NCBI GenBank assembly: GCA_964036045.1
Contig: OZ038383.1
Coordinates: 69,596,588 to 69,660,587 of the forward strand
DNA length: 64,000 nt
Direction of reading: 5' to 3'
Origin: Eutreptiella sp. 'Long Island Sound 2002'
Lineage: Eukaryota > Euglenozoa > Euglenophyceae > Eutreptiales > Eutreptiaceae
Shown one piece after another: positions 17,537 to 56,944 of the stretch; position 1 is the stretch's first letter; each line of letters starts with the position of its first letter. Under the pieces are notes generated by a model. It worked only from the letters and a program-made list of their open reading frames with translations. It did no database searches and had not been told where the DNA came from. Position numbers and translations under genes: made by a program.

Positions 17537-17872
17537 TCAGTATGATATGGATGCAATGTAGTCCAACATCTCAACAAGGCCCTTATACGAGGATACCTGA
17601 TGCGTAGTCAGGAACAGCGGTTGCCAACCAGGACTCGGTACTGGATCTTGCCCAATATCCAGGGGTAACCTGATGCTCGGTATTGGCGCTGGTCTGTCCG
17701 CAAGCAAGCCCAGGTCTCTTACTATCCCACGAAAGCTCCGTTTCATTCTGACCAGCGCTGCAGCCACATTGCCGATGCTGCCGATGAGCACATCTATGGT
17801 TTGGTGTCCTCTTAAGTACGGCAACCTGCACGGAATCTCAACGACGTCGTCACGTGCGCTTGCGCCTGGCCC
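17537..17872 (-). pseudogene. Unrecognised coding-like fragment
   Basis: The minus strand reads about 110 residues of ordinary composition (ARDDVVEIPCRLPYLRGHQT; IDVLIGSIGNVAAALVRMKR; LADRPAPIPSIRLPLDIGQD) and stops at 17537. The N-terminal side runs into the start of E copy 1 near 17870 with no start codon, so E may have inserted here. I do not recognise the family. Confidence 0.35.
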
Positions 17873-18480
17873 CAGAAAGAAAAAAAACCATATGTAAAAC
17901 GCGACGAAAAACTTTATAAGTAGCTGAAATTAAAGTTAAATTGCATAAGAAATGCCTAAAGCAAAGAGCACGCGGCGAAACGCGGTAAAACGCGGCGGCA
18001 AAAATTTGCAACTTAAATAGACAAATAAATAGCGCTGTAAGTGCCGTAACGTTAATACGAGCATAACGCCGTGCCCCTCATCGTCTAACACGCCGTATAC
18101 GCAGAGAAAACCGCGTCGAGCAATGCGCAAAACACGAAACAAAAATTTCCTAACACGCCACGCCCCTGCTCTCGCTCCCTCAAGCCCTCTTTTATTCACC
18201 ATGTACCTTACCCTCCCGCCCGTGCCCCACCCTCGACGCTTCTGCCTCCTTTTTGCCGCAGGTGGAACGTACGCGGCGTCAAGTCCAGGACAGCGAAACC
18301 ACAAAGGAGAAAACATCCACGACACCGCCACCAAAGTGGGGTAACATGTAAGGCAGTGATGAAGACATTGTCTTGCTGCCTGCAAGTGTGCGCGCGTTGG
18401 GTAGTGTATAAGTTTATTTCATTTGCAAAAGCCGAAGAAATATTTTAACAAATTTTGCAGCGGTTAGTAGGAGAAACCAA
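17873..18480 (+). other. E copy 1, 5' segment
   Basis: Contains repeated aaaacgcg-type strings (aaacgcggtaaaacgcgg near 17978), then a pyrimidine-rich stretch (18170-18250). It aligns with 46375-46990: taaaacgcgacgaaaaactt, agcgc(t/c)gtaa, aaatttttctaa-type runs and cgccgcgtcc appear in the same order. It may hold the start signals of E. Confidence 0.6.
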
Positions 18481-20480
18481 ACAAACCCAGGCAACAAACC
18501 AAACAAGGCAGCAGGACAGGACACCACAGCACCACACGGCAGCACAGCACTAAGGGGCACAGCACAGGGGAGCAGGGCACCAAGGGTGAGCAGAGCCGCA
18601 CAGCAACACCGCACAGGGCGGAGAGGACAGGGAACGCACAGCACGACACCCCAGGACGCAGACAGCACAAAGCACAGCGGCGAACAACAGCATGCAGCAA
18701 AACACCCCGGCAAAACACACACAGCGCGGGGTGACAAGACAAAACACAGCGCCGGGAGGCACGGGACCCCAGGACAAAGGACGGCGCCCCAGGGCACGAC
18801 AAAGCGCGCAACAGCACCAAACAGAGCAAAACAAAACAACACAACAGAGCGCACAACAACACAACGCCGGGCGGCACAACGCGCAGCAGCACGGCGCAGC
18901 GCAGCACCCAGGGACACACCACAGCGAACCACAGAAACACGACACCCGGAGCCACCAGGACCCACCAGGAGAGAACACAGGACAGCCAGGCCCAACAGCA
19001 AACACCCAAACACAACAGGCCACAACACAAAACACCAGCCAGCGCCACAGGGGCAAGAGAGCACCGCGTAGGGAGCAACGACACAGGCACACCACCACAG
19101 CACAGCACAAGGGGCGCCACGAAACGGCAAGCGCCCGGAGACACAGCACAAGGAACAACAGCACCGCAAGACAACACAGCACCGAGCCCAAGGGCAGACA
19201 GAGCGCAACAACCCGCCACAGTAGGGGACGAGGCAAAACGCGACCGAAGCACCGCAACGAAACAAACAACACAGCACAGAACCAAGAGACGCACCACGGC
19301 ACAACAGAGCACAAAACAGCACAGCGCAGCGGAAACCAGCACAGGAGTGCAACGCTACAGGGCCACGCCGAACAGCAAGACGCACCACGGCACAGCACCA
19401 AAGAGACAGAAACAGCACGGAGCACCACGGAAAGGCAAGGAAGAACGCAAAAAAAAAACCAGCAGAGAGCGCAGCAGCGTACAACAGCAAAGCACAACAA
19501 AAACAGCACAACAAGACCCAGCACAACACCGCGCCGAACAACACGGCGCAAGAACCCAGCCCGACACAAGAACGCCACACAGCACCGGGCAAAACCCAAA
19601 ATACACCACAGACCGCAGCACCACACGACCCGACGCATGACACCGCATGACACAGGGCACCACAACCAGCCGGGGGGGGGGGGGGGGGGCAGCACAACCA
19701 GTATACACCCGACAAAAAAAAAACCGCGCACAGCAGCCCCGGGGGGGGGGGCGGACAACACCACACGGCACCCCCGAACGGGGCAAAACACCACACCAAA
19801 AAAGAGACCAACACAACACACACCAACGCAAGGCAAAAAAGCACGACAAGACCCGGCGCAACAGGGCAGCCCCACCACAGCACCCAAGGGCAACGACAGG
19901 CTGCAATGGCCGCCGCAGAACACAACCACAGGACAAACCACACAAGCAGGTTACCAGAGGCAGCACGGGGAAGAGAAACGCCGCCAGCACGGCGCCGACG
20001 GACACAAGCAACAACACACAGAGAGCAGGCACAGGCATGGAGCACCGAACGACACAGCGCAAGCGAAAACCGGCCCCCGCCGGAGCACATCGCCCACAAC
20101 AACACACACCAACACACCCAACACCCCAAGACACACAAACGGGCCCGGCAACGCACAACCGGCACACCAAGGCAGGGGAAAAAAAAAGAAAGGAAGCGAA
20201 AAAAATGCCCCAAACAAACAAAAAACGAAAGAAAAGCAAGAAAGAACAAAAAGACGCAGGGGGGGGGCGCTGGGAGAAAAAAAAAAAGAGGGGGGGGACC
20301 ACAAGATGCCAAGGCCCAAGGCATCCCGGGCCGGAAAACACGGAACGCCAGAGACAACGTGGGGGCAGAAAAGGAAAAAAAAGCAGCAACAACCACAAAC
20401 CGGGCAACCCCAGCCCGGAGGGGGCCGAGCAGACAAAGAGAGCACCGAGACCGGCCAGAGGAAAGGGTGAGGCGCACCAA
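18481..20480 (+). repeat. E copy 1, T-poor body (cacagcac-rich) with G-runs
   Basis: Made largely of acagcacaac/cacagcacc strings with very little T, then A-run plus G-run blocks (G-runs near 19673, 19740, 20258 and 20288). The strand asymmetry removes stops in all six frames, which explains frames of 300-1,000 codons here. The plus-strand G-runs could form G-quadruplexes. Confidence 0.75.
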
Positions 20481-21156
20481 AACGCGCCCGCGAGGCCGGC
20501 CCGCCCGGCCTGGCCAAGAGGGGCGCGCACACCCACACACGCACGGGATCCCGGCATGGCGTCCTCTGACTGCAAAGGGGTGGTGTCAGCGTCCACACGA
20601 AACAACCCCGGTGCACCCGCGGAGTCCCCCGTGGAAAGACGGACGGTACAGGAAACCGGACGTGTCAGTGACCAGGTCCACATACGCAAACCACCGCAGC
20701 GCACGCAGCCCAAGACCGACGCCTGAGGGACCCGCCAGGGACAACCCCGTCGTGGAGCCCCTAAAGGGTACGACGCGGAGCGAGCCCACCGCCGCTGCTT
20801 TGGCAGCGGCCAGGGGCAGGCACAAAGAGCCGGGTTCTCGTCCGGCCCGCACTGGCCCTGCGCAGCCGCCCAGTAAATCTGGGGGCGCAAGCCCCGGGTT
20901 GGGGAAAAGGCCCCAAAGCATCAGGAAAGCCGACCAGAGCACCGAGAACGACCCGACCGGACGCGGCGCGGCGCACCTACACGGGGCCAAGAGGCACAAC
21001 AGCGAGGCACGCCGCCAGCCACAACCAATGCACACAAATAGATGCCAAGCAACAACGGCCACCGGGTGCCGCAAGCCCGGGCAGCGCGCACAACCCCCAA
21101 TGAATCACGGCACAGGAACGGGTGCCAGCCAACACCCAACCAGCAGACCGCACGCC
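20481..21156 (+). repeat. E conserved segment, copy 1
   Basis: Best-conserved part of E. It aligns closely with 48871-49555 (gtccacacgaaaca, gagtcccccgt, aaagacggacggt, caaccaccgcagcgcacgca-type strings, cgcagccgcccagtaaa). Not repetitive within itself. Absent from inverted copy 3. Confidence 0.75.
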
Positions 21157-23690
21157 CCAGTCATGAGTGGCGGGGTACAAGCGGAGCGCGCACACCAACA
21201 CACACACATCCCAACATCCGAGCCAGGAGTGGCGGGGCGCAGCCAAAACCCGAGGCCAAGCAGACACACCCTAATTGCACACCCCAGCCAGGACTCGCGG
21301 GGGACAAGCGGAAAGCGCACAGAAAAACACACACACACCCCAACACCCCAGCGGGGAGTGGCGGGGGGCAGCCAAAACCCGAGCTCAAGCAAACACACCC
21401 GCACTGCACACCCCAGCCAGGAGTGGCGGGGTACAAGTGGAGCGCGCACACAAACACACACACACATCCCAACACGCAAGCCAAGAGTGGCGGGGCACAG
21501 CCGAAACCTGAGCCCAAGCACACACACCCACACCGCACAGCCCAGCCAGGAGTGGCGGGGTACCAGCGGAGCGCGCACAGAAACACACACACACCCCAAC
21601 ACCCCAGCCAAGAGTGGCGGGGCGCAGCCGAAACCCAAGCCCAAGCACACAGTTCCACGACGCACACCCCAGCCAGGACTGGCGGGGTACAAGCGGAAAG
21701 CGCACAGGAAAACACACACACACCCCAACACCCCAGCCAGGAGTGGCGGGGCACGGCAAACACCTGAGCCCAAGCACACACACCCACAACGCACACCCCA
21801 GCCAGGAGTGGCGGGGTACAAGCGGAGCGCGCACACACACACACACACACACACCAAAACCGGAGCCAAGAGTGGCGGGGCGCAGCGGAAACCCGAGCCC
21901 AAGCACACACATCCACTACACACACCCCTGCCAGGAGTGGCGGGGTACAAGCGGAGCGCGCACACAAACAAACACACACCCCAACAACCCAGCCAGGACT
22001 GGCGGTGCGCAGCCGAAAACCGAGCCCAAGCACGCACACCCATACAGCACACCCGAGCCAGGAGTGGCGCGGTACAAGCGGAGCGCGCACACAAACACAC
22101 ACACACACCCCAACACCCCAGCCAAGAGTGGCGGGGGGCAGCCGAAACCCGAGCTCAAGCACACACATCCGCACTGCACCCCCAGCCAGGAGTGGCGGGG
22201 TACAAGTGGAGCGCGCACACAAACACACACACGGATCCCAACACGCAAGCCAGGAGTGGCGGGGGCACGCCGAAACCCGAGCCCAAGGACACACACACAC
22301 ACCCCAACATCCCAGCCAGCAGGGGCGGGGCGCAGCCGAAACCGCAGCCCAAGCACACACACCCAGACCACACACCCCAGCCAGGAGTGGCGGGTTGGAG
22401 GCGGAGCGCGGAAACAAACACACACATACACCCCAACATCCGGACCAGGAGTGGCGGGGCGCAGCCGAAGGCCGAGCCCAAGCTGACACACCCACGCCGC
22501 ACACCCGAGCCAGGAATGGCGGGTTGGAAGCGGAGCGCGCACACAAACACACACACACCCCAACACCCCAGCGAGGAGTGGCGGGGCGCAGCCAGCACCC
22601 GAGCCCAAGCACGCACACCCACACCGCACAACCCAGCCAGGAGTGGCGGGGTACAAGCGGAGCGCGCACACAAACACACACACACCCCAAAACCCCCGCA
22701 AGGAGTGGCGGGGCGCAGCCGCAACCCGAGCACAAGCACACACACTCACAGCGCACGACCCGGCGAGGAGTCGCGGGGTACAAGCAAAGCGCGCACACAA
22801 ACGCACACACACCCCAACCCCCCAGCCAGGAGTGGCGGGGTACAAGCAAAGCGCGCACACAAACACACACACACCCCAACACCCCAGCCAGGAGTGGCGG
22901 GGCGCAGCCAAAACCTGAGCCCAAGCACACACACACACAACGCACACCCCAGCCAGAAGTGGCGGGCTTGAAGCGGACCGCGCACAGAAACACACACACA
23001 GCCCAATACCCAAGCCAGGAGTGGCAGGGCGCAGCCGAAACCCGAGCGCAAGCACACGCACCCACACCGCACACGCCAGCCAGGAGTGGCGGGGTACAAG
23101 CGGAGCGCGCACATAAACACGCGAACACCCCAACACCCCAGCCAGGAGTGGTGGGGCGCAGCCGCAACCCCAGCCCAAGCACACACACGCACACCGCACA
23201 CCCCAGCCAGGAGTGGCGGGGTACAAGCGGAGCGCGCACACAAACACACACACATTCCAACACCCCAGCCAGGCGTGGCGGGGCGCAGCCAAAACCCTAG
23301 CCAAAGCACACACACCCACACCGCAAACCCCAGCCAGGAGTGGTGGGGTACAAGCGGAAAGCGCACACAAACACACACGTACCCCAACCCCCAAGCCAGG
23401 AGTGGCAGGGCGCAGCCGAAACCCGAGCCCAAGAACACACACCCACGCCGCACACCCCAGCCAGTAGTGGCGGGGTACAAGCGGAGCGCGCACACAACAA
23501 CACACACCCCAAAAACCCAGCCAGGAATGGCGGGGTGCAAGCCCAAACCCAAGCACAACGGCACACACCACAAAACCAAGCCAGGAATGCTGGGGCGAAA
23601 CCAAACCCCGTACCCAAGCATACCACCCAAGGCCCCAGCCAGGATTGGCGGGGTTCGGGTGAAACCCAGACCCAAACACAAGCGCCACAC
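21157..23690 (+). repeat. E tandem array, copy 1 (dimeric unit ~128 bp)
   Basis: Two alternating monomers each start with cagccaggagtggcgggg. One continues tacaagcggagcgcgcac and an (ac)n run; the other continues cgcagccgaaacccgagccc and an (ac)n run. About 20 dimers. The core contains GCCA-GGAG-TGGC, a possible small hairpin. No protein function is inferred from the open frames (THTHPNTPARSGGA type). Confidence 0.85.
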
Positions 23691-23692
23691 AA

Positions 23693-24163
23693 CAGTAGGA
23701 AACCCAGTGTCCATAGCCTGGGCACTGAGGGAGCCCGTGCCATGCAGGTGACCCGGCCAAACGAGGTCTCGAGACGGGGGGTAAAGCTGCATCCTAAAGC
23801 CTGCGCTGCGGTGGGACTCGACGCAAAGCGTGCGACAACCAAGCACCTCGGAACCTCAGTGCCAAGAACATGCATGCATGCCTTGGGAACGGGATACCCA
23901 AGGAAGTCCGGTGAACCCCTAGGGTTCCGCCCAAAGGAAGGAACGTCCGCAGGCACGGGGGCACACCCTCCCGACGAGACAAGTACGTCACGCCCGCGGC
24001 GATAAGCCCTCCCAGTGTTGCCCGAGGCCGCTTTGTTGGGGGCCACCAGAAAGGTCTAGCGGGATGTAAGTTGCCTCCCCTCTTCAAGCGCGGAGCCTCT
24101 TCCTGTTCGTCACAGGAGCAACGCCAGCGGGATACATGGGGCGCCTCTGCACGACCGAGTGCA
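23693..24163 (+). repeat. E 3' module, copy 1
   Basis: GC-rich unique module of ~470 bp, found again at 53893-54360 and, inverted, at 25457-25925. It always lies between the array and the tetranucleotide tail. It contains a CCAAG/CTTGG stem (23862-23886) around the palindrome atgcatgcat. A conserved structured 3' end is typical of sequences recognised by a LINE reverse transcriptase. Confidence 0.7.
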
Positions 24164-24179
24164 CCTACCTACCTACCTT
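24164..24179 (+). repeat. (CCTA)n tail of E copy 1
   Basis: Four CCTA/CCTT units after cgagtgca. The same gtgca-plus-tail junction closes copies 2 (54361) and 3 (inverted, 25440); the family at 57339 has a similar cgagtcga plus tail. Confidence 0.75.
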
Positions 24180-25439
24180 AACAGGCCGGCAGGGTGGGCT
24201 GGTCCCAGCCCATACTGCACCAGCTGGTGGCCAGGCTGAAGAAGACACAGCAGAAAGAAGTCCAGGTGCGGGGAAAGGCAGAGGGTGCAGGCTGGGAGGC
24301 AGAAGTTGCGCAGGCAAAGAAGCGGGTGCAAGTGGCGCGGAGGGCAGTGGAGGATGAGCATGGAGCAATCTACCAAAAAGTGGTGGCAGAGCATGAGCCG
24401 TATATGGAGAGAGCTGTACCGTACAAGTCCCTGCAATAAATCCGAGAGTTGGTAGAGGCTGGACAACCAGAGCAGATTAAGGCAGTGAGACTGCGGGACG
24501 GCAGGGTCACAGGCAACAAGCCGGAACTTTTGGCGGAAATGGCAGAGAGCTTTCCGGGGTGAGACAGCCAAGGGCAGCGGGGACTCAGCGAGACCACACG
24601 GAGGATGGTGCGGGCGCTGCCGCGGACGTTCATGAAGGAGCAAAGCGAGGCCATACACCGCCGCAGGGTGACACTGCGGTAAATAGCGGAGGCGGTGCGG
24701 GCCCTTAAGAGGAAAAAGCGCCCAGGGATGGATCAGCTGGTGGTGCAGGCATAGGAGAACCTCGGAGCGCCCGAACTGGATGGGTTGGTGGGGAGGATCA
24801 CAGAGGTGCTGCGCACCGGCGAGCCCCCGGTGGAGTGGAGGGGCACGCTGAGCCCCCTCCACAGGAAGGGGATCACCTGTTGCTGGGGAACTGGAAGCCC
24901 ATATGCTGTGCCGTCACAGAGGCCAGGCTGGTGTGGATGGTGGTCTTCAGGAGGATACAGCAGAGGCTGTATGAGGTGGGGGTTTTCCGGGACAACATGT
25001 GGGGGTCCACACAGGAAGTAAGCTTCCTGTATGACATGTAACTGAACAATGAGGACCTGGAGGCCTTCGTGTCGTCAGTGGACGTGAAGTGGACGTTCCC
25101 CAACACGCCGCAGAGGCTCAGGGACAAGGTGTGGGGGCAGTTGGGGCTCCTGTACGGCGACTTCGTAGAGGAGTATCTGCGCACAAGGAGGTACACCATT
25201 GCACCGGGTAAGCGCGGTACAGAGTGCATGTGTGACCCCAGGTGGCGGGGTACCACAAGGCGGCATGGAGGGCCCGTTCCTGTACATGCTTGCCATGCTC
25301 CCACTGATGCGATGGATAGCGGAGGCGTACCCACACCTGGCGCCACACACATCGCCGACACAAGCATAGGTGGACGATGCGATGCCCATGGCCCGGGACG
25401 AAGGGACGAAGAAGGTGGTACAGGACCGGATGCAGAGAG
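24180..25439 (+). pseudogene. LINE reverse transcriptase fragment A
   Basis: Frames in several phases line up with the LINE at 31.3-34 kb: PYKSLQ, AVRLRDGRVTGNKPELLAEM, then PGMDQLVVQA, VEWRGTLSPLHRKG, NWKPICCAVTEARLVWMVVF, SVDVKWTFPNTPQRL (RT motif A region), a GGMEGPFLYML-type motif B, and a motif C region with TAG in place of the Tyr codon (AGGTGGACGATGC at 25368). Stops (24437, 24560) and frameshifts make it dead. RT in LINEs copies the element RNA at a nicked target. E copy 1 ends at its left edge and inverted E copy 3 at its right. Confidence 0.75.
24718..25439 (+). repeat. 722-bp direct repeat, left copy (flank of E copy 3)
   Basis: From gcgcccaggg to tgcagagag. Matches 27315-28036 base for base apart from scattered substitutions, with the same total length. 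E copy 3 lies exactly between. Confidence 0.85.
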
Positions 25440-27314
25440 GTAGGTAGGTAGGTGCACTCGGTCCTGGAGAGGCGCCTCATGGTTCCCCCTGGCGTCGCCC
25501 CTGTGACAAACAGGAAGAGGCTCCGCGCGTGAAGAGGGGAGGCGGCTTACATCCCGCTAGACCTGACTGTTGGCCCCCAACAAAGCGGCCCCAGGCAACA
25601 CCGGGAGGGCTGATCGCCGCCAGCGTGACGTGCTTGTCTCGCCAGGAGGATGTGCTCCCGTGCTTGCGCACGTCCCCTCCTTTGGGCGGAACCCTAGAGG
25701 TTCACGGGACTTCCTGGCGTATCCCGTTCCCAAGGCATGCATTCTTGGTACTAGGGTTCCGAGGCGCTTGGGTGTCGCACGCTCCGCCTCGAGTCCCAAA
25801 GCAGCGCAGGCCTTAGGATGCAGCCTCACCCCCGGTCTGCGAATCTCGTTTGGCCGGGTCACCTGCATGGCACGGGCTGCCTCAGTGCCCGGGCTGTGGG
25901 CACTGGGTTTCCTACTGTTGTGCGGCGTTTGTGTATGGGTCCGGTTTGCGGTTGGGTGTGGGTTTTGTTAACCCCGCCAGTCCTGGCTGGGGTCTTGGGT
26001 GGGTGTGTTTGGGCATGGTTTGTGGTGTTGTCCCTCTAGTGTCGGCTGTTTGTGGTGTTCGTGGTTGGGGTTCGGTTTCGGCCTGCTTAGGGGACGTGTA
26101 TGGTTTCGTGCGCGCCCCGCTTGCCCCCCGCCGTTTCCGGTTCCGGCGTGCGGTGTGGGCGTGCGTGCTGGGCCCGGGTCTCGGCTGTGCCCAGCCTCTT
26201 CGTGGCTGGGTTGTCGGGGTGTGTATTTTGCGCTTTTTTTTTTTTGCTGGGTGTCCCTGTCCCGGGCCTTGTGGTCCCTGTCCCCCCATCCCCTTCCTTT
26301 CGGGCTGGGCTGCTGGCTCTTTTTTTTTTCGTGTTGTGTGTCTGCATGTTTCGGTGGCGGGGGCTGGGGGTGGAGGATTGGTACGGGTGGAGGGGGGAAC
26401 GGGAGGGGGAGGTGGACATGGGGCGGCGGTGGCGCGCTTGGTGGCGTCCGGGGGAGCGGGAGTGGTGGTGGCGGGGGCTGGGGGTGGTGGATGGGTATGG
26501 GCGGCGGGGGGAACGGGGAGCCCGGCAGGGCCTGTGGAGGGAGGGGGGGGTGGACGTGGGGCGGTGGTGGCGTGCCTGGCGGCGTCGGGGGGAGCGGGAG
26601 CGGTGGTGGCGGGGGCTGGGGGTGGGGGTCTTGTATGGCCAGACGGGGGAGGGAGAGGTGGACATGGGGCGGCGGTGGCGCTCGTTGAGGCGCCCGGGGG
26701 AGCGGGAGCGGCGAGAGCGGAGCCTCTGGGGGTCGTGGTGGCACCTGGCGGAGCGGGAGCGGCGCGAGTGGGTGGTTGAGGCGCGGTGGCGGTGTGGGGA
26801 GGTGGGCGCCGTGGGCGAGTGTGCCGTGCGGGGGGGGAACGGGAGCGCCGCCGTTTGCGGGACCGGGCCTCATCGCTCGAGTCGGGCCAGTCAGGAGGCG
26901 TCGGCGGGTCCTGGGAGGCTTCGCGTGGTGCCGCCTGGTACTGGAGGGGGGGGGGGGGTCCCCTGTTGTCCATGCATCCGCCACGTAGGGGTGTGGTGGC
27001 GGCAGCGGCTGGTGGTATGGGTCGAGTGACTGTCCTTGGCGGGCTTGGGTCCGGGGGGCCCCTTCGGTGTGGACGGGGTGGCCGGGGGGATACGGATACG
27101 GTTCCGGGTATGGGGGGGGTGGCTGGCACAGGGGGGGTGGCCCCTGGCGGTAGGCGGGGTATGCGGGTGGAGCGCTCGGTGGCTGCCATCTAATTCGCTG
27201 GTGCTGTTTGTGCTCGGGGGGGTTGTGGCCTGGTGGGGTAGGGTGGTGGGCAGTGGTAGTGGTGGGCGTGGTGTTGGCAGTGGTGGTGGTGGGGCCGCTG
27301 GTGGTGCTGGTGCA
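25440..27314 (-). mobile_element. E element, copy 3, inverted and truncated
   Basis: Read on the minus strand, it ends in the tail (25440-25456), preceded by the 3' module (25457-25925) and a short array (25926-26225). Upstream of that lies a C- and A-rich body (G/T-rich on the plus strand). The conserved segment (iii) is missing. Strings such as the complement of ccaaggcccaag...cccgggcc near 26260 recall the body of copies 1 and 2. The 3' module carries the same palindrome-centred stem. It is flanked by 722-bp direct repeats of LINE RT sequence. Confidence 0.7.
26345..26800 (+). repeat. G-rich minisatellite, unit about 110-125 bp
   Basis: Repeats of ggtggcgggggctgggggtg, gaacggga/gg, gacatggggcggcggtggc and gcgcccgggggagcgggag recur four times. 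Many runs of three or more G on the plus strand make G-quadruplexes likely. Open frames here are composition artefacts. Confidence 0.75.
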
Positions 27315-28045
27315 GCGCCCAGGGGTGGATCAGCTGGTGGTGCAGGCATACGAGAACCTCGTAGCGCCCGAACTAGATGGGTTGGCGGGGAGGATCACAG
27401 AGGTGCTGCGCACGGGCGAGCCCCCGGTGGAGTGGAGGGGCACGCTGAGCCTCCTCCACAAGAAGGGGATCACCTGTTGCCGTGGAACTGGAAGCCCATA
27501 TGCTGTGCCGTCACAGAGGTCAAGCTGGTGTGGATGGTGGTCTTCAGGAGGATACAGCAGAGGCTGTATGAAGTGGGGGTTTTCCGGGACAACATGTGGG
27601 GGTCCACACAGGAAGTAAGCTTCCTGTATGACACGTAACTGAACAATGAGGGGCTGGAGGCGTTCGTGGCGTCAGTGGACGTGAAGTGGATGTTCCCCAA
27701 CACGCCGCAGAGGCTCAGGGACAAGGTGTGGGGGCAGTTGGGGCTCCTGTACGGCGACTTCGTAGAGGAGTATCTGCGCACAACGAGGTACACCATAGCA
27801 CCGGGGAACCGCGGTACAGAGTGCATGGGTGACTGCAGGTGGCGGGGTACCACAAGGCGGCATGGAGGGCCCGTTCCTGTACATGCTTGCCATGCTCCCA
27901 CTGATGCGATGGATAGCGGAACTGTACCCACACCTGGCGCCACACACATCGCCGACACAAGCATACGTGGACGATGCGCTGCCCATGGCCCGGGACGAAA
28001 GGGCCAAGAAGGTGGTACAGGACCTGATGCAGAGAGTAAGGGAAA
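27315..28045 (+). pseudogene. LINE reverse transcriptase fragment B (right copy of 722-bp direct repeat)
   Basis: Same part of RT as fragment A: PGVDQLVVQAYENLVAPELD, WRGTLSLLHKKG, NWKPICCAVTEVKLVWMVVF, FRDNMWGSTQEVSFLYDT then TAA at 27636, SVDVKWMFPNTPQRL, GVPQGGMEGPFLYML (motif B) and QAYVDDALPM (motif C with both Asp kept). Frameshifts near 27470 and 27825 separate these pieces. The match to fragment A ends at 28036. The sequence continues in frame a little further (VRESVFPCLGVSF) before unrelated DNA. Confidence 0.75.
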
Positions 28046-37206: not shown

Positions 37207-37300
37207 CCACAGGCGCGGGCCCGCGGCGACGGGCCAGGCACCGCACCGCCCGGAGCGCGCGCGCCCCCTCCCGTGTAGAGGCCGGATCGTCCTACAAACA

Positions 37301-39880: not shown

Positions 39881-39966
39881 CGTTCCGCAGCGATGTGAAG
39901 GAACAGAAACAAACAAAAGCCAAATGTACCTTCTCCGTCAATCGAAAACCTATAATTCTTTTTAAA

Positions 39967-43800: not shown

Positions 43801-45244
43801 TTGTCGGAGGGACCACACGCCACGGACACGCGACCAAGGGAGCCTGCAGCCGACCCAAGCCCTGCACAAGGAGCGGGGGGGCGGCCCTCCCCGCAGCCCA
43901 GAAACCACCAAGCCACGGAGGGCACATCGCGACAACCGGGGCACGACGCGAGCAGCCCAGGGGCGGACACAGAAATGACGGGGACCTCCGGCCCCCACGA
44001 GTCCGCCGGCCCACTGCCCGCCGCCACGCCCTGGTCAATGCCCCAGCAACAGGAACCCCCCACGGATCACGTGCCTGGGGGACACCCTGGCACAACCTCA
44101 CAGCACCCCTCCCCGGCTGGCGCAGCGCTGGACCAGGACCGGTTGGCCATGCCCCCCGCCCCCCCCCGACCGCCGGAACAAAGAGGCGCGGGTCCCTTCG
44201 ATGACGCGGAGCTGAGAGCGCTCTACGGCATCCACGCTTCCACGCCCTCGAGCGAGCTGGTGGCAACCCTCCAGGAACACCTCCGTGACGTCAACCCGGA
44301 CAGGCTCTTCGCCATGGTCCCCCTGCCACACGCTGCAACAACCAGAATGTATGTGCGGCAGCTCCAGGCGCTCGTCACCCCCGGGGCACAGATCTCCGAC
44401 AACCTCTTTGAAGCGTGGATCTGGTGGTTCAACACCCACCAACCAGCCCAGGGGGGCGTCTGGGTCCGACACCTGGGCTGGGTACACACGCTCAAAGCGC
44501 CGCAGACAGACCCCAGGCTCGCGCCCAGCACCGGGGGCCGGGACCAGGGTGCCCCGCCACCGAGGCCCGACAACCTCCGTATCCCGCCGCACGAAGGCCT
44601 GGCGGCATGGGAAAGCGGGACCGCCCGTAGCAGGGGGCACAACCTCACGAGCCTGGCGGCACGCTACCCGGAGACGGCGTGTGTGGCGCCCCCGGCGCGC
44701 GAACGTGACCCCGGCACCATAGCCATGATCGTGTTGGAGAATGGCCACTACTACCAAGTGCGGATCATCCCGCACCGGCAGAGGGGCCACTTGAGCCCGG
44801 AGGCCGTTGACTCCATGCCCCCGGCAACCACGGACCTGCCGGACAGCCTCAGCCCCCTGCTCCCAGACCAACCCCCGGACCCCCTGACGGCTGTCGTGTC
44901 GGGGACGGCAGGCACCTGGCACCCAGGCCACCCCCTCCACTGCCTCTGGCGGTGAGCGTGACGCCGCTGGCCACACACACAGGGGGTGGTCAGCGGCGTG
45001 GAGGTTCTACCTTGACGGCCGGCAGCACTTGGAGGCCATCCCTGAACGGACGGCAGAGACCCCCACCGCGACCAACCTGTGCCCCGTCTTCGCGATCCAC
45101 CAGGTCCGGGCGCTGGTACTGGGCGAGCAACTGCAGCCCACCATCCGCACTGAGACGGAAGCCCAGGCGGCTAAAGCGGCCCTGGTGCACGAAATCCTCA
45201 GTGCCCTCCGCAGCGCCCTTGTGCGACGCGTGGGTAACCCCTGA
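43801..45244 (+). pseudogene. Ulp1-like (C48) cysteine protease domain of the LINE accessory ORF
   Basis: After a Pro-rich N-terminus, residues ~195-215 read ISDNLFEAWIWWFNTHQ, like the entry helix of Ulp1/SENP proteases. Near 44737 comes TIAMIVLENGHYYQVRI, with a His in the place of HW (codon 44746), and 21 residues on AVDSMP gives the Asp (codon 44809). The frame stops at 44953. In the next frame TNLCPVFAIHQV (Cys codon 45080) fits the nucleophile box, giving the order His, Asp, Cys. The Asp-Cys distance, ~90 residues, is longer than usual. Ulp1 enzymes cleave SUMO-like conjugates, and viral and transposon versions process polyproteins. One frameshift makes this copy inactive. Confidence 0.45.
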
Positions 45245-46356
45245 GGGCCCTGAGCAACAGCCGGCCGCGGGACCCGCAGCGACGACGCGCAGCCGCGCAT
45301 GCGCGACACGAGTCCCGCACCGGGCATGCGCAAGGGAAGAGATGACATGGCGGACAAGGGATCCCCCCCTCCCGCCAGAGGACCGGACAACAAACGTCAC
45401 GCCACCGGATGCGGGGTCGGCCACGAACCACGAGGACCCCGGGCAGGCCGACCACGCCCAAACGGACCCCCTGGTACAACCCAACAACACGCGGCCGCGC
45501 AATACACTCCAACAACGCCCGTCGACCGGGCACACAAGCGGGGAAGGCGTCAACCTACCCGGCACGTGCAACGGGCACCCAAGGAGTAGACGCTAGCCTT
45601 AGCAGCCCATGGTGTCAGACACGAAGGAAAAACCAACGACCTCCTCCCACATCCCCCGGACGGGTGCCGCACTTCCCGGACCCCCGCGACCCGCCTGCAA
45701 CAGGGAATGGGGGCAGCGCCACACCCGGACCCGTCATCCCACCTGACCCTGCTCTCCCACGTAACGGATCCGGGGGGGGGCGGGCAAAGGAGCCAGCCAA
45801 ACGCGCGGGGCCCACGGCGGAGCCGATGACCACGGGAGCGTTGTCGAACACCGCGATCTGCCAGATCCAGGCGCTGGCGCTGGGCAAACGACGGCAGCCC
45901 GCCACCCGCACTGAGACAGAGGCTGGGCGGCACACCCGGCCCTTGTGCACGAAATCTTCAGTACCCTCCGCCGCACCCTTGTGCGACGCGTGGGAAACCT
46001 CCCAGGACCCTGAGCCGCACCCGGCCACAGGACCTGCAGCGACGACGCACAGCCGCACGCGCGCGACGCGAGTCCCGCACTGCCCATGAGCAAGGGGGGA
46101 GACGATACGACGGCTGCGGGGTCACCTTCCCCCAGCGGAGGGCCGGCTGATGGACGTCACACCAACGGCTGCGCACTCGGCCATAAACCACGACAACCGC
46201 GGGCGGGCAAACCTCGCCCACAAGGACCCCAGGTACAACCTGACGGCACACGGCCGCGCAACACACCCCAGCAACACTTAACAGTCGGACACACCGACGG
46301 GAAAGACGTCAACCTGCCTGACACATGCAACAGATACCCGAAGAGTGGGGGCTAGC
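45066..46356 (+). repeat. Diverged ~760-bp tandem duplication at the end of the LINE accessory region
   Basis: The segment with the protease Cys box and the following ~500 bp recurs from about 45830. Anchors cgctggtactgggc (45111) and cgctggcgctgggc (45872), and cgcagcgacgacgc (45275) and tgcagcgacgacgc (46035), are 760-761 apart. The second unit stops at 46356, where E copy 2 begins. Confidence 0.75.
46032..46356 (+). repeat. 325-bp direct repeat, left flank of E copy 2
   Basis: From acctgcag to gctagc. The same 325 bases, with ~8% differences by eye, follow the tail of E copy 2 at 54373-54697. Confidence 0.85.
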
Positions 46357-46990
46357 ATGGCGCGTAAACCTGTCGCTCGCTGGGGCCCTGTCCCAAAACG
46401 AAATAAAAAGATAGGTAAAACACGACGGAAAAAACTTTCTGAATAGCTGAAAATAAAGCCAATTAGCATAAAAAAAACGGTTAGGCCAAAAAGCGCGCTG
46501 CGAAACGCGTAAAAACGCGACAAAAAACCTTTCGACGTAAAATAGTCCGATAGTTAGCGCCGTAAACACCGAAACGCTCGTAGGACCCTAATGCCGTCCC
46601 TGACGGCGTCTAACTAGCCGTAGGAACAAGGAAAAACGCGTCGCGAGCAGCGCGTAAAACTCGAAAAAAATTTTTCTAAGCCGCCGCGTCCCTTTGCCCT
46701 GCTTCCCTTCCTTTTCTCTCCTTCTCCATGCACCCACCTCCCTTCCCTCGTGCCCCCCCTCACACCTTTTTGTCAGCTTAGGCGACCGGCCCTGGGGGAA
46801 AAGCGGTCAACCCCTTGCAAGCAAGACCACCATCTTCGCGGCCGGGTGGCAACACGTAAGTCAGAAATTTCACCTTTGTATTGCTGCATGCCTGCGTGCG
46901 TGAGTTGCGTAGAGTTTGATTTTCTAAGGAGAAACGTTTTAATTTTTGGTTTTCAGAAAGTTTTCAAAGGCACGGAAAAACAGCAGGGGT

Positions 46991-48870
46991 TTTTAGCAAA
47001 GGAAAAGAGGACAAAAGGAAAAACAAACACCAGCAGCGCAGACAACCGCACAGCACAGCCCCCCAGCACAACACCGCAAGGCAGCACAGCACCGCAGGAC
47101 ACAGCAGAGGGCGCAGGACACCACAGGACAACGCACAGCACAGCAAGACACCACGACACACCAGAGCGGCAGCACCACACCGCAGAACGCCCAGGGAGAC
47201 ACCACAACACACAGGGACACGCCACAGCATGAGGCACCGACAACAGCGCAGACTCAACCGGAACCGAACAACACGACGCGCAGCGCAACACAGCACCGCA
47301 CACACCGGGAAAGGACACAAACCAACACCACCAGCAAAGGAAAACGGACAGCAGGGCGCCACAGCAGGGCACCAGCAGACAACCACGGGCCACCAGACCC
47401 AGCACCGCACCACAGCACACCAAAGGAAACAGCACAACACACAGCAGCGCACCACAGCACCGGGCGCTGGCAACAGCCCGCACCACACGAACAGCACAAC
47501 GCAAGCGCACCAGCACAGGGAAGCACAGCACCGCACAGAGCAGAGAGGACAGGGAACGCACAGCACAGCACCCCAGGACACACACAGCACAAAGCAGAGC
47601 GGCGAACAACAGCACACACCACAAGGCAACGACAAAACACACACAGCGCGGGGGAACACCGCAAAACACAGCGCCGCAAAGCACAGGGCCCTAGGGCGAC
47701 GGGGAGCACCAGAGGGCACGGCTTGACGAGCAGCGGCACCAACGGAGCGCAGCAAAACAACACAGCACACAACAGCAGGATACCGGGCGACTCAACGCGC
47801 AGCAGCGCAGCGCAGCACCGCAACCCGGGACACACAGCACAGCACATCACACGGCACACAGCACCGAGCGGAAGCGACGAAAACCGCGAGACAAAGGAGG
47901 GGGGGGGGGGCACCAACCACCGGGGAGCAGCCAACGTCCAGACGGGAGGCACGAAAGAGGCGAGAACGCACAGGGAGCCCCAAAGCGGGAGGCCAACAGA
48001 GACAACAAAGCGCAGCGCCGAGGCCCAAGGCACCCCGGGCCGGAAACCAGAGAAAGCCGGAGACAACGGGGGCGCACAACGCAAAAAAAAAAAAGAACGG
48101 AGCACCAAGCGGCAGGGGGGTGGGGGGGGGCAGCAACCACCAGAGAGGAACCAACGGCGAGGCGAGACACAGAAAAAGGAGAGAGTGCACGGGGAGCCGA
48201 GAAGCGGGAGGCCCACAAACAAAACACAGCGCCAAGGCCCAGGGCACCCGGGGCCGGAAACCAGAGAAAGCCAAAGACAACGGGCGCGCACGCAGGGAAA
48301 GAAAACAAGAAAAAGGGGGGCACCGAGCGGCAGCAACGAAACCAGCCAGACACAAGAAAAAGAGGGGGGGGGGCATCAAGCACCAAGGAGCAGCCAACGG
48401 CCAAGCAGGAAAAAAAAAGGCGAGAGCGCACGGAGAGCCGAGAGGCGGGAGAAAAAAAAAACGCAAAGCACAGCGCCAAGGCCCAAGGCAACCAGGGGCA
48501 GAAACCAGAGAAAGCGAGAGACAAAAGGGGCGCCGACAAGGGAAAAGAAAAAAGAACGGAGCGGCGGCAAGAAAAACTGCGAGACACAAAAGGGGGGGGT
48601 GGGGGGGAGGCAACCACCAGGCAACAACCAACAACCAGGCGGGCAACACGAAAGGAGCGAGAGCGCACGGAGGGCCGAGAAGCGCGAGGCCAACAAGACA
48701 AAAAACACACAGCGTCAAGGCCCGGGGCACCCGGGGCCGGAAGCCAAAGAAGGCAGGAGACAAAGGGGGCGCGCGGAAGACGGCAACGGAAAAAAAAAAT
48801 GGGGTCCAAGACGGGGGCAACCCCAGCCCGGAGGGGGCCAAGCAAAGCAGAAAGCCAAAGCGGCCAAAGG
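46991..48870 (+). repeat. E copy 2, T-poor body with ~235-bp tandem units
   Basis: acagcac-rich first half, then units anchored at the agcgcacggaga-type string near 47963, 48180, 48421 and 48656, each with ccaaggcccaaggca...ccgggcc and an A-run plus G-run (G-runs near 47889, 48116, 48366 and 48591). Copy 1 has a single such unit (20270-20400). Confidence 0.7.
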
Positions 48871-49555
48871 AAAAGGTGACGCGCACCAGAACGCGCCCGG
48901 GAGGCCGGCCCGCCCGACCCAGCCAAGAAGAGCAAGCACACGCACACACGCGCGGGACCCGGGCGTGGCGTCCTCCGACCCGCAAGGGGCCGTGTCGGCG
49001 TCCACACGAAACAGCGCCCGTGCACCGGGCGAGTCCCCCGTCGAAAGACGGACGGTCCGGGTAACCGGACGCGTCAGTGACCGGGTCCACACACGCCAAC
49101 CACCGCAGCGCACGCAGCCCAAGACCAGAGCCGGAGAGACCCGCGAGGGACAAGCCCATCGCGGGGCCCCGAACGGGTACGACGCGGAGCGAACCGCCCG
49201 CCTCGGCGGGGGCCAGCGGCAGGCACAAAGAGCCCAGTTCTCGGCCGGCCTCCGCGTGCCCCGCGCAGCCGCCCAGTAAAGCCGGAGTCGCAAACCCACG
49301 GGGTGGGGAAAGGCACCACGGCGACGGCAAAGCCGACCACAGCACCGAGAGCGACCGGACCGGACGAGGGGCGGCGTACCACGCGGGGCCACGAGGCACG
49401 CCAGAAAGGCACACCGCCGGCAACAACCAAGGCACACGGACAGGTGCCAAGCAGCGACGGTCGCCGGGTGCCACAAACCCGGAGGCCGCATACAACACGC
49501 AACGAACCACGGCACACGAACAGGTGCCAGGCAACAGCCAACCAAAAGACCATAA
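48871..49555 (+). repeat. E conserved segment, copy 2
   Basis: Counterpart of 20481-21156, alignable throughout. It includes tggcgtcctccgac, gtccacacgaaacag, gagtcccccgtcgaaagacg and gcgcagccgcccagtaaa. Confidence 0.75.
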
Positions 49556-50922
49556 ACCCCAGCCAGGAATGGCGGGGCGCAGCCAAAACCCGACCCCGAG
49601 CACACACACCCACAACGCACAGCCCAGCCTGGAGTGGTGGGGCGCAGCCGAAACCCGAGCCCAAACACCCACACCCACACCGCGCACCCCAGCCAGGAGT
49701 GGCAGGGTGCAAGCGGAGCGCGCACACCAGCGCACACACAGCCCAACACCCCAGCCAGGAGTGGCGGGGCGCGGCCGAGATTCGAGCCCAAGCACACAGA
49801 CCCAAGCCGCACACCCCAGCCAGGAGTGGTGGGGTACAGGGGGAGCACGCACACCAGCACACACACAACCCAACAACCCAGCCAGGAGTGGTGGGGCGCA
49901 GCCAAAACCGGAGCCCAAACACACACACCCACACCGCACACCCCAACCAGGAGTGGCAGGGTACAAGGAGGGCACGCACACCAGCACACACACACCCCAA
50001 CACCCCAGCCAGGAGTGGCGGAGGGCAGCCGAAACCCGAGCCCAAACGCACACACCAACGGTGCGCACCCCAGCCAGGAGTGGCCGTGTTCAAGCGGAGC
50101 GCCCACACCAGCACACACACCACTGAACACCCCAGCCAGGAGTGGCAGGGTGCAGCCGAAAGCCGAGCCCAAACACACACACCCACGGTGCGCACCCCAG
50201 CCAGGAGTGGCGGGGTGCAAGCGGAGCGCCCACACCAGCACACACACACCCCAACACCGCAGCCAGGAGTGGGGGGGTGTAGCCCAGACCCAGGCCCAAA
50301 CACACACACCCACACCGCACAGCCCAGCCAGGACTGGCGGGGTACAAGGGGGGCACGCACACGACCACACACACACCCCAACACCCCAGTCAGGAGTGGC
50401 GGGGCGCAGCCAACACCCGAGCCCAAACACACACACCCACGGCGCACACCCCAGCCAGGAGTGGCGGGGTTCAAGCGGAGCGCCCACACCAGCACACACA
50501 CAGCCCAACACCCCAGTCAGGAGTGGCGGGGCGCAGCCCAAACCCGAGCCCAAACACACACACCCACGGCGCGCAACCCAGCCAGGAGTGGCGGAGTGCA
50601 AGCGGAGCGCCCACACCAGCACACACACACCCGAACACCCCAGCCAGGAGTGGCAGGGGTGCAGCCGAGACCCGAGCCCAAACACACACACCCACACCGC
50701 ACACCCCAGCCAGGACTGGCAGGGTACAAGGGGGGCACGCACACGAGCACACAAACACCCCAACACCCCAGTCAGGAGTGGCGGGGCGCAGCCGAAACCC
50801 GAGCCCAAACACACACACCCATGGCGCGCACCCCAGCCAGGAGTGGCGGGGTGCAAGCGGAGCGCCCACACCAGCACACACACAGCCCAACACGCCAGCC
50901 AGGAGTGGCAGGGTGCAGCCGA
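49556..50922 (+). repeat. E tandem array, copy 2, left part
   Basis: Dimers of cagccaggagtggcgggg-led monomers as in copy 1, interrupted inside a monomer at gcagccga by the insertion at 50923. Confidence 0.85.
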
Positions 50923-52387
50923 GTAAGTAAGTAAGGTAAGTAAGTAAGGACGGCCGCGTCCGCAGCCTCATCTGACTCCTCCTTGTTTGTTTTACATGGT
51001 GGCCGCCTTAGGCGGGAAGGAGTGCTCTCCACCATTAGTTTCCCTGGCGACCCCTGTCTCACCTCACGGCCGAGTACTTCAACCAGGTTCCCTTGGGGCA
51101 TGACCGGTGGTAGGCTCCCTTCAGTCGCTGCCCTCACGGTTTCAGCTCCTTCCGGTCACCCTTTGAAGGATCCCCCGGCCTTCCCCCCCTAGCACAGCCT
51201 ATTGGGCGCCTGCAGGCGGGTTTCCTGCGGATAGCCCTCGCCGAGAACGGAGCATTTCTCTCTGTCAGCCACATTCCACCACTCCCCATCCCTCACGGGC
51301 TGGAGTACCCACTCGGCTCCCGGATGCACTTGGTTTTCGTCCATCCACGGCTGGAGGCCAGGGGGCGACCCTTTCCACGTTCCTCCTGGTCCCGCTCACG
51401 CGTGAACCTACGTGTACTCAGGCCATTGACCCGGGGATCTCAAGGTCAACCCTCACCCCTGCGGACACCTCACGGCCGTCCCGGAGTTCAGGGCATTTTC
51501 CCGACTTCCCGTGGCCAGGTTCTCCATGGTTGGCCCATGGTTCACGACTCCATGGCGACTGGTTTCCCACTCCCATGGGGCTGTTGCTTGGCGCTTTCGG
51601 CCTCCCTGCCCTTCCCATGTCCCATTCCCCGTTGCCTCATCCCGGCACCGGCCCGTTCCCAGCATCCCATGGACTCCCTACCCCTTCGGGCCGTTGTGCG
51701 GCCCTAGCCACACGCCCTTCCCCGCCCCGCCCCCTTGTCCCTGCGTCCCGTGATTATACCCCACCGGTCCGCCTGCTACCCTGTGGCGCTGGCCCACTGG
51801 GGCTTCTTCCTTCCAGGGACCGTTTCGTGCGCTAAGCACGGGTCGCTTCCTTCCCGCCCCCGTCCCTTTCCCCTGTGCCGCGGCCCGGGCCTAATCCCCC
51901 GGGCTGTCTTGCGGCCCCATCCGATCCCTCATCCCGTGTTTATACCCCGGCAGGCCGCCAGCAACCCCGTGACGCGGGCCCACTGGATCCTCATCCATCC
52001 GGGGACCGTTTCGTGCGCCTAGCACGGGTCGCTCCCCTCCCTCCCCCGCCCCTCCCTCCTGTGCTGTCTCCCTAGCTGTCCTAGTCACCTGGGGCCGTCG
52101 CGTGGCCCTAGCCACTCGTCCTTTTCCGTCCCGCCTCCTTGTGGTGTTGTCCTCGTTTTTTCCCCCCTTTTTTTTGTGCCCTTTTTTTTTGCTTGGTTCC
52201 CTCATCCCTGCATGCACGCACAACATCACTGCATCGCCATCTCGTTTCTGTTCGGTGCTCACGTCCAGTCCCTCTGCCATCCTGTGGCGTTGCCTCTGGC
52301 GGTCCCCGGCCATAACGAGCGGCCCAGTCATTCAGCCCGCGTTGCTGTACAAGTTTCCGCTCTCTCCCCTCTCTACCCGCCCCTCCC
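50923..52387 (-). mobile_element. Nested insertion with (CTTA)n tail, family E''
   Basis: Splits one monomer of the E array: the left side ends gcagccga (50922) and the right side resumes ccgaaacccgag (52388), so ccga appears on both sides as a 4-bp target duplication. On the minus strand it ends in ttacttactt-type repeats (50949-50923), preceded by a GC-rich module. Further upstream are units with cccgtgct(t/a)(a/g)gcgcacgaaacggtcc at 187-bp spacing (plus-strand anchors 51821 and 52008). No coding function. Same architecture as E with unrelated sequence. Confidence 0.65.
51700..52130 (-). repeat. ~187-bp tandem units inside the nested insertion
   Basis: Plus-strand strings ccgtttcgtgcgc(c)taagcacgggtcgc and gccctagccac recur (51701, 51821, 52008, 52105). 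Each unit also holds a gattatacccc/tttataccccg string, TATA-like on the minus strand. Confidence 0.6.
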
Positions 52388-53890
52388 CGAAACCCGAGCC
52401 CAAACACACACACCCACACCGCACACCCCAGCCAGGAGTGGCAGGGTACAAGGAGGGCACGCACACCAGCACACACACAGCCCAACGTCCCAGCCAGGAG
52501 TGGCGGGGCGCAGCCGAAACCTGAGCCCAAACACACACACCCACGGTGCGCACCCCAGCCAGGAGTCGCGGGGTGCAAGCGGAGCGCCCAGACCAGCACA
52601 CACACAGCCCAACACCCCAGCCAGGAGTGGCGGGGTACAAGGGGGGCACACACACAGACACACACAACCCAACACCCCAGCCAGGAGTGGCGGGGTGCAG
52701 CCGAAACCCGAGCCCAAGCACACACACCCATGCGGCGAACCCCCGCCAGGAGTGGCGGGGTACAGGAGGAGCAGGCACACAAACACGCACACCCCAACAA
52801 CCCAGCCAGAAGTGGCGGGGCGCAGCCGAAACCCGAGCTGAAACACACATACCCACACCGCGCACCCCACCCAGGTGTGGCGGGCCGCAAGCGGAGCGCC
52901 CACACCAGCACACACACACCCCAACACCTCAGTCAGGAGTGGCGGGGCGCAGCCAAAACCCCAGCCCAAACACACCCACCCACACCGCGCACCCCAGCCA
53001 GGAGTGGCTGGGTGCAAGCGGAGCACGCACACGAGCACACACACAGCCCAAAAGCCCGGCCAGAAGTGGCGGGGCGCAGCCGAAACCCGAGCCCAAGCAC
53101 ACACACCCAAGCCGCACACCCCAGCCAAGAGAGGCGGGGTAAAGGAGGAGCACGCACACCAGCACACACACACCCCAACACCCGAGCCAGGAGTGGCGGG
53201 GCGCAGCCGAAACCCGAGCCCAAACACACACACCCACACCGCACAGCCCAGCCGGGAGTGGCAGGGTACAGGAGGGGCACACACACGAGCACAAACAGAC
53301 CCCAACACCCCAGCCAGGAGTGGCGGGGCGCAGCCGAAACCCTAGCCCAAACACACACGCCCCCGCCGCACACCCCAGCCAGGAGTGGCGGGGTACAAGT
53401 AGAGTGCGCCAACAAACACAAACGCACCCCAACACCCCAGCCAGGAGTGGCGGGGCGCAACCGAAACGCGCGGCCAAGCAGACACACCCACGCCACACGT
53501 ACAAGCAGGAGGGGCGGGGTACAGGAGGAGCACGCACACCAGCACACACACACTCCAACACCGCAGCCAGGAGTGGCGGGGCGCAGCCAGAACCCGAGCC
53601 CAAGCACGCACACCCACGCCGCATACCCCAGCAAGGAGTTGCGGGGTGCAAGCCGAGCGCGCACACAAGCAGACACAAACCCCGACAACCCAGCCAGGAG
53701 TGGCGGGGCGCAGCCGGAACCCGAACCCAACCACACACACTCACACCGCACATCCCAGCCAGGAGTGGCAGCGTACAAGCGGAGCGCACACACAAGCGCA
53801 CACACGCCCCAACACCCCACCCAGGAGTGGCGGGGCGCAGCCGACACCCGACCCCAACCACAACCCAGACCCAAACACAAGCGCCACGCA
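52388..53890 (+). repeat. E tandem array, copy 2, right part
   Basis: Continues the interrupted monomer and runs to caagcgccacgcaacggtagg, where the 3' module starts. Confidence 0.85.
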
Positions 53891-53892
53891 AC

Positions 53893-54372
53893 GGTAGGAA
53901 ACCCAGTGTCCATAGCCGAGGCACTGAGGCACCCCGTCCCATGCAGGTGTCCCGGCAAAACGAGATCCGGAGACCGGGGGTAAGGCTGCATCCTGAGGCC
54001 TGCGCTGCTTTGGGACTCGAGGCGGAGCGTGCGACACCCAAGCACCTCGGAACCCCAGTACCAAGAACATGCATGCATGCCTTGGGAACGGGATACGCCA
54101 GGAAGTCCGGTGAACCCCCAGGGTTCCGCCCAAAGGAGGGGACGTGCGCAAGCAGGGGGGCCCACCCTCCTGGCATGACGGGCAGTCACGCTGGCGGCGA
54201 TCAGCCCTCCCGGTGTTGCCCGGGGCCGCTTTGTTGGGGGCCACCATTCAGGTCTAGCAAGATGTAAGCCGCCTCCCCTCTTCACGCGCGAAACGACTTC
54301 CTGTTCGTCACAGGGGCGACGCCAGGGGGAACCATGGGGCGCCCCTCCAGGACCGAGTGCACCTACGTACCT
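53893..54372 (+). repeat. E 3' module and tail, copy 2
   Basis: Close match to 23693-24179, including the CCAAG/CTTGG stem (54061-54085) and the ending accgagtgca plus cctacgtacctac. Confidence 0.75.
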
Positions 54373-56880: not shown

Positions 56881-56944
56881 CCACAACGACCTACTTCCAA
56901 CCCCCGGCCCCCAGGGACCGCGCAAGCTCGACCGAGTCAGGAGG

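Follow-up and report, generated by a model that had tools for sequence, protein, structure and literature searches.

We analyzed a 64,000-nucleotide stretch of the genome of the euglenophyte Eutreptiella sp. 'Long Island Sound 2002' (GenBank assembly GCA_964036045.1, contig OZ038383.1, positions 69,596,588 to 69,660,587, forward strand), hereafter the window, which contains two full-length copies, E1 and E2, of a large noncoding composite element termed E. A first-pass annotation, made from the letters alone, had proposed that the same composite is present twice with one module order. This was borne out by sensitive blastn, in which the copies are colinear: 17857-22593 aligned with 46378-50920 (67.6% identity), and 22142-24178 with 52387-54376 (78.7%). 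The two copies, the second of which is split by a nested element (N), are made up as follows.

17843..24179, + strand: E1, full-length copy (blastn, module comparison, head alignment)
17843..18469, + strand: E1 head, with A-rich/CG start, pyrimidine tract and GT...AG intron-like stretch at 18348-18460 (sequence; 10-head alignment)
18470..20309, + strand: E1 T-poor body, 23 T in 1,840 (composition)
20310..21130, + strand: E1 GC-rich conserved segment, 79% identical to E2
21131..23680, + strand: E1 dimeric array of 40 hairpin-like 21-mers (repeat and motif scan)
23690..24163, + strand: E1 3' module, 86% identical to E2 (genome search)
24164..24179, + strand: E1 CCTA tail (sequence)
46357..54372, + strand: E2, full-length copy split by N (blastn, flanking repeats)
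46357..46989, + strand: E2 head, with intron-like GTAAGT...CAG at 46856-46956 (sequence; head alignment)
46990..48715, + strand: E2 T-poor body, 21 T in 1,726, five of them as one run at its start (composition)
48716..49555, + strand: E2 GC-rich segment (comparison with E1)
49556..53862, + strand: E2 dimeric array, 45 motifs, split by N (repeat and motif scan)
53890..54361, + strand: E2 3' module (comparison with E1)
54362..54376, + strand: E2 tail, with an ACCT overlap with the target duplication (sequence)

Module identities were calculated over ungapped columns and compared with five 3-mer-shuffled nulls each. The heads are 62% identical (null 39-44%), the GC-rich segments 79% (null 46-48%) and the 3' modules 86% (null 40-46%). 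The T-poor body claimed for both copies held up in composition (T 1.3% in E1 and 1.2% in E2) but not as homology over its whole length (55.5% against a null of 48-53%); homology is limited to about 450 bp (18492-18946 and 47418-47865, 73%). After removal of N and its duplication, E2 measures about 6.30 kb against 6.34 kb for E1, in keeping with the earlier statement that the corrected lengths agree. Both arrays hold copies of one 21-nt motif, CCCC-A-GCCA-GGAG-TGGC-GGGG, spaced mostly at 62 and 65 bp, in which T stands opposite A in the predicted hairpin. The predicted mean pairing probability of array positions is 0.76-0.87 at T, 0.75-0.77 at G and 0.09-0.11 at A.

A coding role for the long open frames of E was rejected: DNA that lacks T has no stop codons in any frame on either strand, and of the 16 gaps in the (poor) body alignment of E1 and E2, 13 have lengths not divisible by three. 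A tRNA search returned nothing, Rfam gave no match in the window at the gathering score, and relaxing the limit to E values up to 0.5 left the E2 region without a match and yielded a single weak antisense match in the E1 body (E 0.17). The dinoflagellate spliced leader sequence is absent from the window.

To place E1 and E2 within the genome, the 3' module was searched against the surrounding 2.28 Gb assembly. Of 2,473 first-look candidates 40 were scored, all of which match over the full 471 bp, and 20 were fetched as stretches (L-numbered). A head query gave 2,743 first-look candidates, of which 40 were scored, and six more copies were fetched; the first-look counts (2,473; 2,743; 2,589) are not copy numbers. 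A CCTA-type tail directly follows the 3' module in all 20 copies fetched with that module. Only L011 and L025 carry the head within the stretch, and these two are among five that have the GC-rich segment; the others are cut at the 5' side in the body, GC-rich segment, array or 3' module. L025 is about 6.4 kb long. The 5' ends were partly estimated from T content, and in L019, L024, L027 and L028 the element reaches beyond that estimate. Those of L010, L019, L024 and L027 lie outside the fetched stretch, upstream sequence of L026 is limited to 1.3 kb, and L017, L018 and L021 have one flank in common, the other fetched flanks being different. The fixed 3' end with its tail and the variable 5' ends agree with the proposal of the first-pass annotation that E is copied in trans by non-LTR (long terminal repeat) machinery, as do duplications that abut the tail and the 5' end, and a reverse transcriptase (RT)-encoding long interspersed nuclear element (LINE) with the identical type of 3' end, both described below.

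That annotation had also named scrambled modules, or copies beginning and ending elsewhere, as findings that would speak against the composite. Scrambled order was never seen in the copies read, but the ends do differ, by exchange of modules. L033 and L034 have the same head, T-free body and GC-rich segment followed by another array and a 3' end with a (CAAACCT)n tail (type II), and in L035-L037 a third array follows the head and a T-free body, the tail, where read (L036 and L037), being CCTA. At least three different 3' halves thus occur behind the head and T-free body; the order is kept while modules are swapped, so that copies alike at the start can end elsewhere. In comparison with the E module, the type III end scores 55, the best of 100 shuffles reaching 43.5, and the type II end does not match (40.5 against 41 shuffled); the type III end is borderline against LINE-B, the LINE in which E2 lies (47 against 48 shuffled). 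Among predicted proteins, whose matches mark only loci with open frames and are biased towards T-poor loci, 118 of the 120 matches listed (of 174) run from the 3' module into the array, and 35 have at least about 60 module residues. In one predicted protein, P0250, an antisense head (27 residues, 70%) is fused to a sense body, a possible twin-priming inversion. As side observations, L033 has about 700 additional bp between head and body, and P0249 and P0262 contain an E-type GC-rich segment and a T-free frame continuing from RT frames, as though E had inserted there; P0249 is 98% identical to the window RT frame at 2-1435.

A LINE that shares the E 3' end was found among the same copies. Six of the 20 (L016, L019, L020, L024, L027, L028) have the 5' part found in E3, a truncated element of the window, with best matches of 80-91% and one of 75% by length in L028. 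Further upstream, L019, L024, L027 and L028 contain an RNase H region with 45-60% identity to its LINE-B counterpart (E down to 2.6e-60). Upstream of L024 is a frame of 1,194 residues, still open where the stretch ends, with matches to Exo_endo_phos (E 5.5e-6) and RVT_1 (E 1.8e-15). Over 714 residues its RT shares 48% identity with a LINE-B relative, and its closest solved structure is human L1 ORF2p. An 805-residue frame with no Pfam match precedes it (L040/L024), and long Pro/Arg-rich frames lie between it and the common 3' module (L040, L024). We term this element LINE-E; judged by these frames, it is an autonomous L1-like LINE of at least 14 kb (summed) that ends in the E 3' module and CCTA tail, and LINE-B is a relative. 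As for RT within E-type elements, 12 LINE-B proteins searched with tblastn against L033-L037 match just 38-44 residues, in the type II 3' end, and P0012 matches none of the stretches L009-L039.

E is very probably a non-autonomous composite non-LTR retrotransposon of SVA-like build, mobilised in trans by LINE-E. It could instead be an internal-deletion derivative of one autonomous LINE having the same head, T-free body and 3' end, which we consider unlikely, though it has some appeal: LINE-E has one to eight array motifs in front of the same 3' module, and third codon positions of LINE-B are T-poor (5-12%). No head, body or GC-rich segment was found in the 6 kb upstream of L024 that encode endonuclease and RT (the LINE-E 5' end lies beyond), and the head is joined to several 3' halves rather than one. 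The discovery of LINE-E makes mobilisation in trans firmer as the best explanation, and derivation by deletion weaker.

An unusual part of E is its body, which is T-free in young copies. Across eight bodies there are 24 T in 12,646 bp, half of them in the older L011, with limits drawn from the T-free runs and a few edge T excluded; L033 is without T over 1,695 bp, and L025 has a single T in 1,625. The bodies diverge by up to about 30%, and the differences hardly ever involve T: 27 of 1,371 mismatches do so (27 of 28 pairs matched; pairs are non-independent). In four duplication pairs of the window, 48 of 130 differences involve T. In the homologous patch of E1 and E2 the count is 11 of 118 mismatches (p 2e-7). 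Window bodies contain about 1% T. By our own arithmetic, the repeats flanking E2, where 11 of 29 differences involve T, imply a gain of about 0.85% T per copy; the E2 body has 16 T in about 1,720 outside its initial run, a level that is as decay predicts. With the initial run excluded, G is the next base after T in 19 of 39 cases over the two bodies (p 0.005; E1 12 of 23, p 0.006; E2 7 of 16, p 0.19), an excess such as CpG decay would give. The GC-rich segment occurs in 22 predicted proteins, 14 of which have at least 100 residues upstream. In 12 of these 14, at most 3.3% of the residues adjoining the segment need codons with T, in a set that favours open, T-poor frames; the two exceptions, as we read them, probably cross insertion junctions and continue as an RT frame and a weak protease match.

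Our leading explanation for this T-freeness is selection for an RNA that would be unstructured and silent in processing. The predicted fold of the body RNA is -0.19/-0.21 kcal/mol/nt, compared with -0.34/-0.37 when A and T are randomised, and from the modeled folds we infer that U may be retained only where it serves pairing or signaling. Two accounts would do without selection on T. The body could be an old T-free minisatellite kept so by fast tandem turnover, as the internal duplications of the E2 body (214-bp period) and the low-complexity CAGCACA-like sequence, with a compressed size 7-10% under shuffled, might suggest; we regard this as improbable, since aligned bodies differ by T-avoiding substitutions (L033 and L035 have 69 mismatches, none with T) and bodies of little homology are equally T-free. 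An equally doubtful alternative is that copying or editing strips T, by misreading of template U or by deamination of A on the complementary strand. That T itself is excluded, which is broader than avoidance of stop codons or splice sites, would fit such a process, as would the T-poor synonymous sites of LINE-B; however, the head and 3' module keep T, so the process would need to leave these parts untouched or be hidden there by selection.

The heads carry intron-like signals. A GTAAG site is present in all ten aligned heads, and in our own reading seven of ten also have a CAG resembling a 3' splice site close to where the body begins; in L025, the T-free stretch opens about 20-25 nt past this CAG. 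A 22-codon ATG frame was also observed in the exon-like stretch of seven of the ten heads (L025 2086-2700 and others), with its stop in six and lost in L035.

Target duplications were measured at 11 insertions (E2, E3, LINE-B, N, L011, L014, L025, C20, L033, L036 and L037). L034, whose 164-bp repeat lies 824 bp off the tail, and L035, whose 3' end is not within the stretch, were excluded. The lengths range from about 14 to 1,988 bp and exceed 100 bp in eight of the 11. Those of E2 are:

46032..46356, + strand: E2 left target duplication, 325 bp, 91.1% identical to 54373-54697, no gaps
54373..54697, + strand: E2 right target duplication

The longest belongs to L025 (1,988 bp, 99.65% identity, five mismatches and two gaps). 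L011 has 420 bp, L014, which is cut in the body, 30 bp, L037 42 bp and the head-bearing L036 about 14 bp. That of the C20 copy measures 136 bp, lies within a satellite of about 90-bp period, and is 99.3% identical compared with 90-92% in most other registers. L033 has about 1.7 kb, in a tandem of element-target-element-target; this tandem resembles a product of unequal crossing-over between long duplications.

We propose the following cycle for E. An RNA starting in the 5' head would carry the U-free body, the GC-rich segment and the array of short hairpins, and would end in the LINE-E-type 470-nt 3' module and a (CCUA)n tail. The body would act as an unstructured leader lacking processing signals, the hairpin array could bind a protein in many copies, and the 3' module would be the handle for LINE-E. 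LINE-E endonuclease/RT would copy the RNA to new sites by target-primed reverse transcription, with a second cut about 14 to about 2,000 bp off, producing target duplications of equal length. Both transcription from the head and the action of LINE-E protein are what we infer. U would be selected against, most likely so that a noncoding RNA of roughly 6 kb avoids both secondary structure and signals for splicing and 3' processing.

Several observations weigh against this proposal. No duplication was found for 13 of the 20 3'-module copies, nor one flanking E1. Outside CpG, the E2 repeat has diverged at 19 of 247 positions (7.7%), compared with 29 of 852 (3.4%) for the repeat of the enclosing LINE-B (p 0.007); E2 is nested in LINE-B yet has the older-looking repeat, the reverse of the expected order. 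Either the E2 repeat is older, LINE-B having for instance jumped while carrying E2, or rates differ, or it is no target duplication; the remaining long duplications are independent of it. Covariation in the array hairpin (24 of 113 deviating pairs still paired; four of six double changes) is too weak for a claim, and that in the 3' module is also weak, with a double change in two of 144 predicted pairs (three sequences). Mono-shuffled bodies fold alike (-0.19/-0.22), so the weak folding follows from composition alone. Finally, the intron-like signals are kept in the genomic copies, though splicing would remove them, which suggests that the copied RNA is unspliced or that the signals are unused. 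That the long flanking repeats arose by unequal recombination or segmental duplication is very improbable, for although divergence is higher in the E2 repeat than in the outer repeat, L033 forms a tandem, the C20 repeat lies inside a satellite and further kilobase tandem duplications occur in the window, the repeats are bounded by tail and 5' end at independent loci, with unrelated targets and lengths that vary per copy.

The window begins with RT and phage-integrase-like frames, which we read as probably DIRS-type, and its retroelements, which are those of a eukaryotic genome, also include LTR gag, protease, LINE-A and LINE-B. The other mapped features are:

50923..52386, - strand: N, nested element with (CTTA)n tail and ~248-bp duplication (sequence, repeat comparison)
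25440..27313, - strand: E3, LINE-E copy truncated at the 5' side (made up of tail, E-type 3' module, a remnant of the array and a C-rich part of LINE-E)
24717..25439, + strand: E3 target duplication copy 1, in LINE-A RT (723 columns, 95.2%, no gaps)
27314..28036, + strand: E3 target duplication copy 2
31256..57364, + strand: LINE-B, 5'-truncated L1-like LINE with RT, containing E2 and others; CCTA-type tail at 57339-57364
30268..31255, + strand: LINE-B left target duplication in LTR gag, ~990 bp, 94.9% identical to 57365-58357
57365..58357, + strand: LINE-B right target duplication (gag resumes)
56851..57338, + strand: LINE-B 3' end, distant homologue of the E 3' module (with E1, E2 and E3 alike, none of 300 shuffles scores as high)

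N seems to have its own ~248-bp target duplication, the repeat (93.5%) ranking top of 151 distinct array comparisons (next 91.5%); a relationship of N to the E or LINE-B 3' ends was rejected. E3 sits within LINE-A on the minus strand, and was rejected as an E composite as its 5' part belongs to LINE-E instead. The match of LINE-B to the E module lies in the last ~190 bp of LINE-B. Following the RNase H-like part, LINE-B has a Cys-rich stretch of RING-like appearance, and its 3' region (36951-57338) is T-poor, very long and marked by repeats of ~760 bp and 378 bp; within it, an AT-richer segment with CACGTA-like inverted ends (39860-42720) is probably a further insertion. A 1,636-bp tandem duplication (30301-31935 and 31935-33570, 98.8%) spans the gag/LINE-B junction and is less diverged than the LINE-B target duplication. 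The 5' region of the LTR gag element occurs twice (16921-17417 and 28456-28967), bracketing E1, LINE-A and E3, with about 110 bp identical and the remainder about 90%; this pair was rejected as an E1 duplication as no tail lies at the proper position. Elsewhere, 2433-2505 and 2892-2964 form a perfect 73-bp inverted repeat enclosing about 390 bp, a MITE-like (miniature inverted-repeat transposable element) or hairpin element, and 6022-7109 and 7105-8192 are a 99% tandem duplication of 1,089 bp beside a 184-bp satellite.

Among known elements, E is most readily compared with hominoid SVA and the related variable number tandem repeat (VNTR) composites LAVA, PVA and FVA. These are described as noncoding composites that contain a VNTR and are moved in trans by an L1-type LINE, that share some domains while differing in others, and that are hominoid-specific (PMC4432496). 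E is likewise a noncoding composite with an internal array and proposed LINE mobilisation in trans, but it is larger (E1 6.3 kb), its body is T-free, and it has the 470-bp 3' module and the CCTA tail in common with its LINE. The SVA family features (CCCTCT hexamer, Alu-like part, SINE-R, poly(A)) are not found in E, which has a CCTA tail and other modules. By analogy, E would work like SVA, and is not an SVA. Short interspersed nuclear elements (SINEs) are a few hundred bp long. Some are described as having LINE-derived 3' ends with stringent 3' recognition (PMC3747384). E resembles these in sharing its 3' end with a LINE of the same genome, but is far longer, with an internal satellite, and shows no Pol III-type head derived from tRNA, 7SL or 5S RNA, given that no tRNA was found and Rfam gave no match at the gathering score. 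The architecture of E may accordingly be described as that of an SVA-type VNTR composite combined with a SINE/LINE-style shared 3' end.

Long target duplications have a parallel in human cells deficient in nucleotide excision repair (NER), where the cited passages give L1 duplications above 100 bp in 4 of 7, 21 of 23 and 22 of 28 inserts of three lines, with 18 of them exceeding 1 kb, whereas HeLa never rose above 10% (PMC5223499). The likeness lies in the long, variable lengths; the difference is that a repair defect in culture is compared here with natural copies in one genome. For L1, short duplications are described as seen only with 5'-truncated copies (PMC2912911). Similarly, the two head-bearing copies among our 20 have long duplications and 13 others none, but the length scale here is larger, and E3 is truncated yet has 723 bp, E1 is full length with none, and L036 has a head and about 14 bp. 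Our literature search, with subscription journals mostly outside it, returned no T-free element and no long duplications as the natural habit of a LINE family. We suggest tentatively, with slightly less than even confidence, that this family keeps more than 1.5 kb of RNA near zero uridine amid free divergence, implying uridine-specific selection or copying, and that LINE duplications reach 2 kb in a normal genome.

LINE-mobilised VNTR composites are known chiefly from primates. E would be an independent, larger and modular VNTR composite in a distant eukaryote whose genome also supplies the LINE. Its kilobase target duplications would be a natural counterpart to the NER-deficient result on the placement of second-strand cleavage. 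The T-free body may be regarded as a natural experiment, in which more than 1.5 kb is written in three letters and maintained while the sequence changes, making it testable whether RNA base composition itself can be selected.

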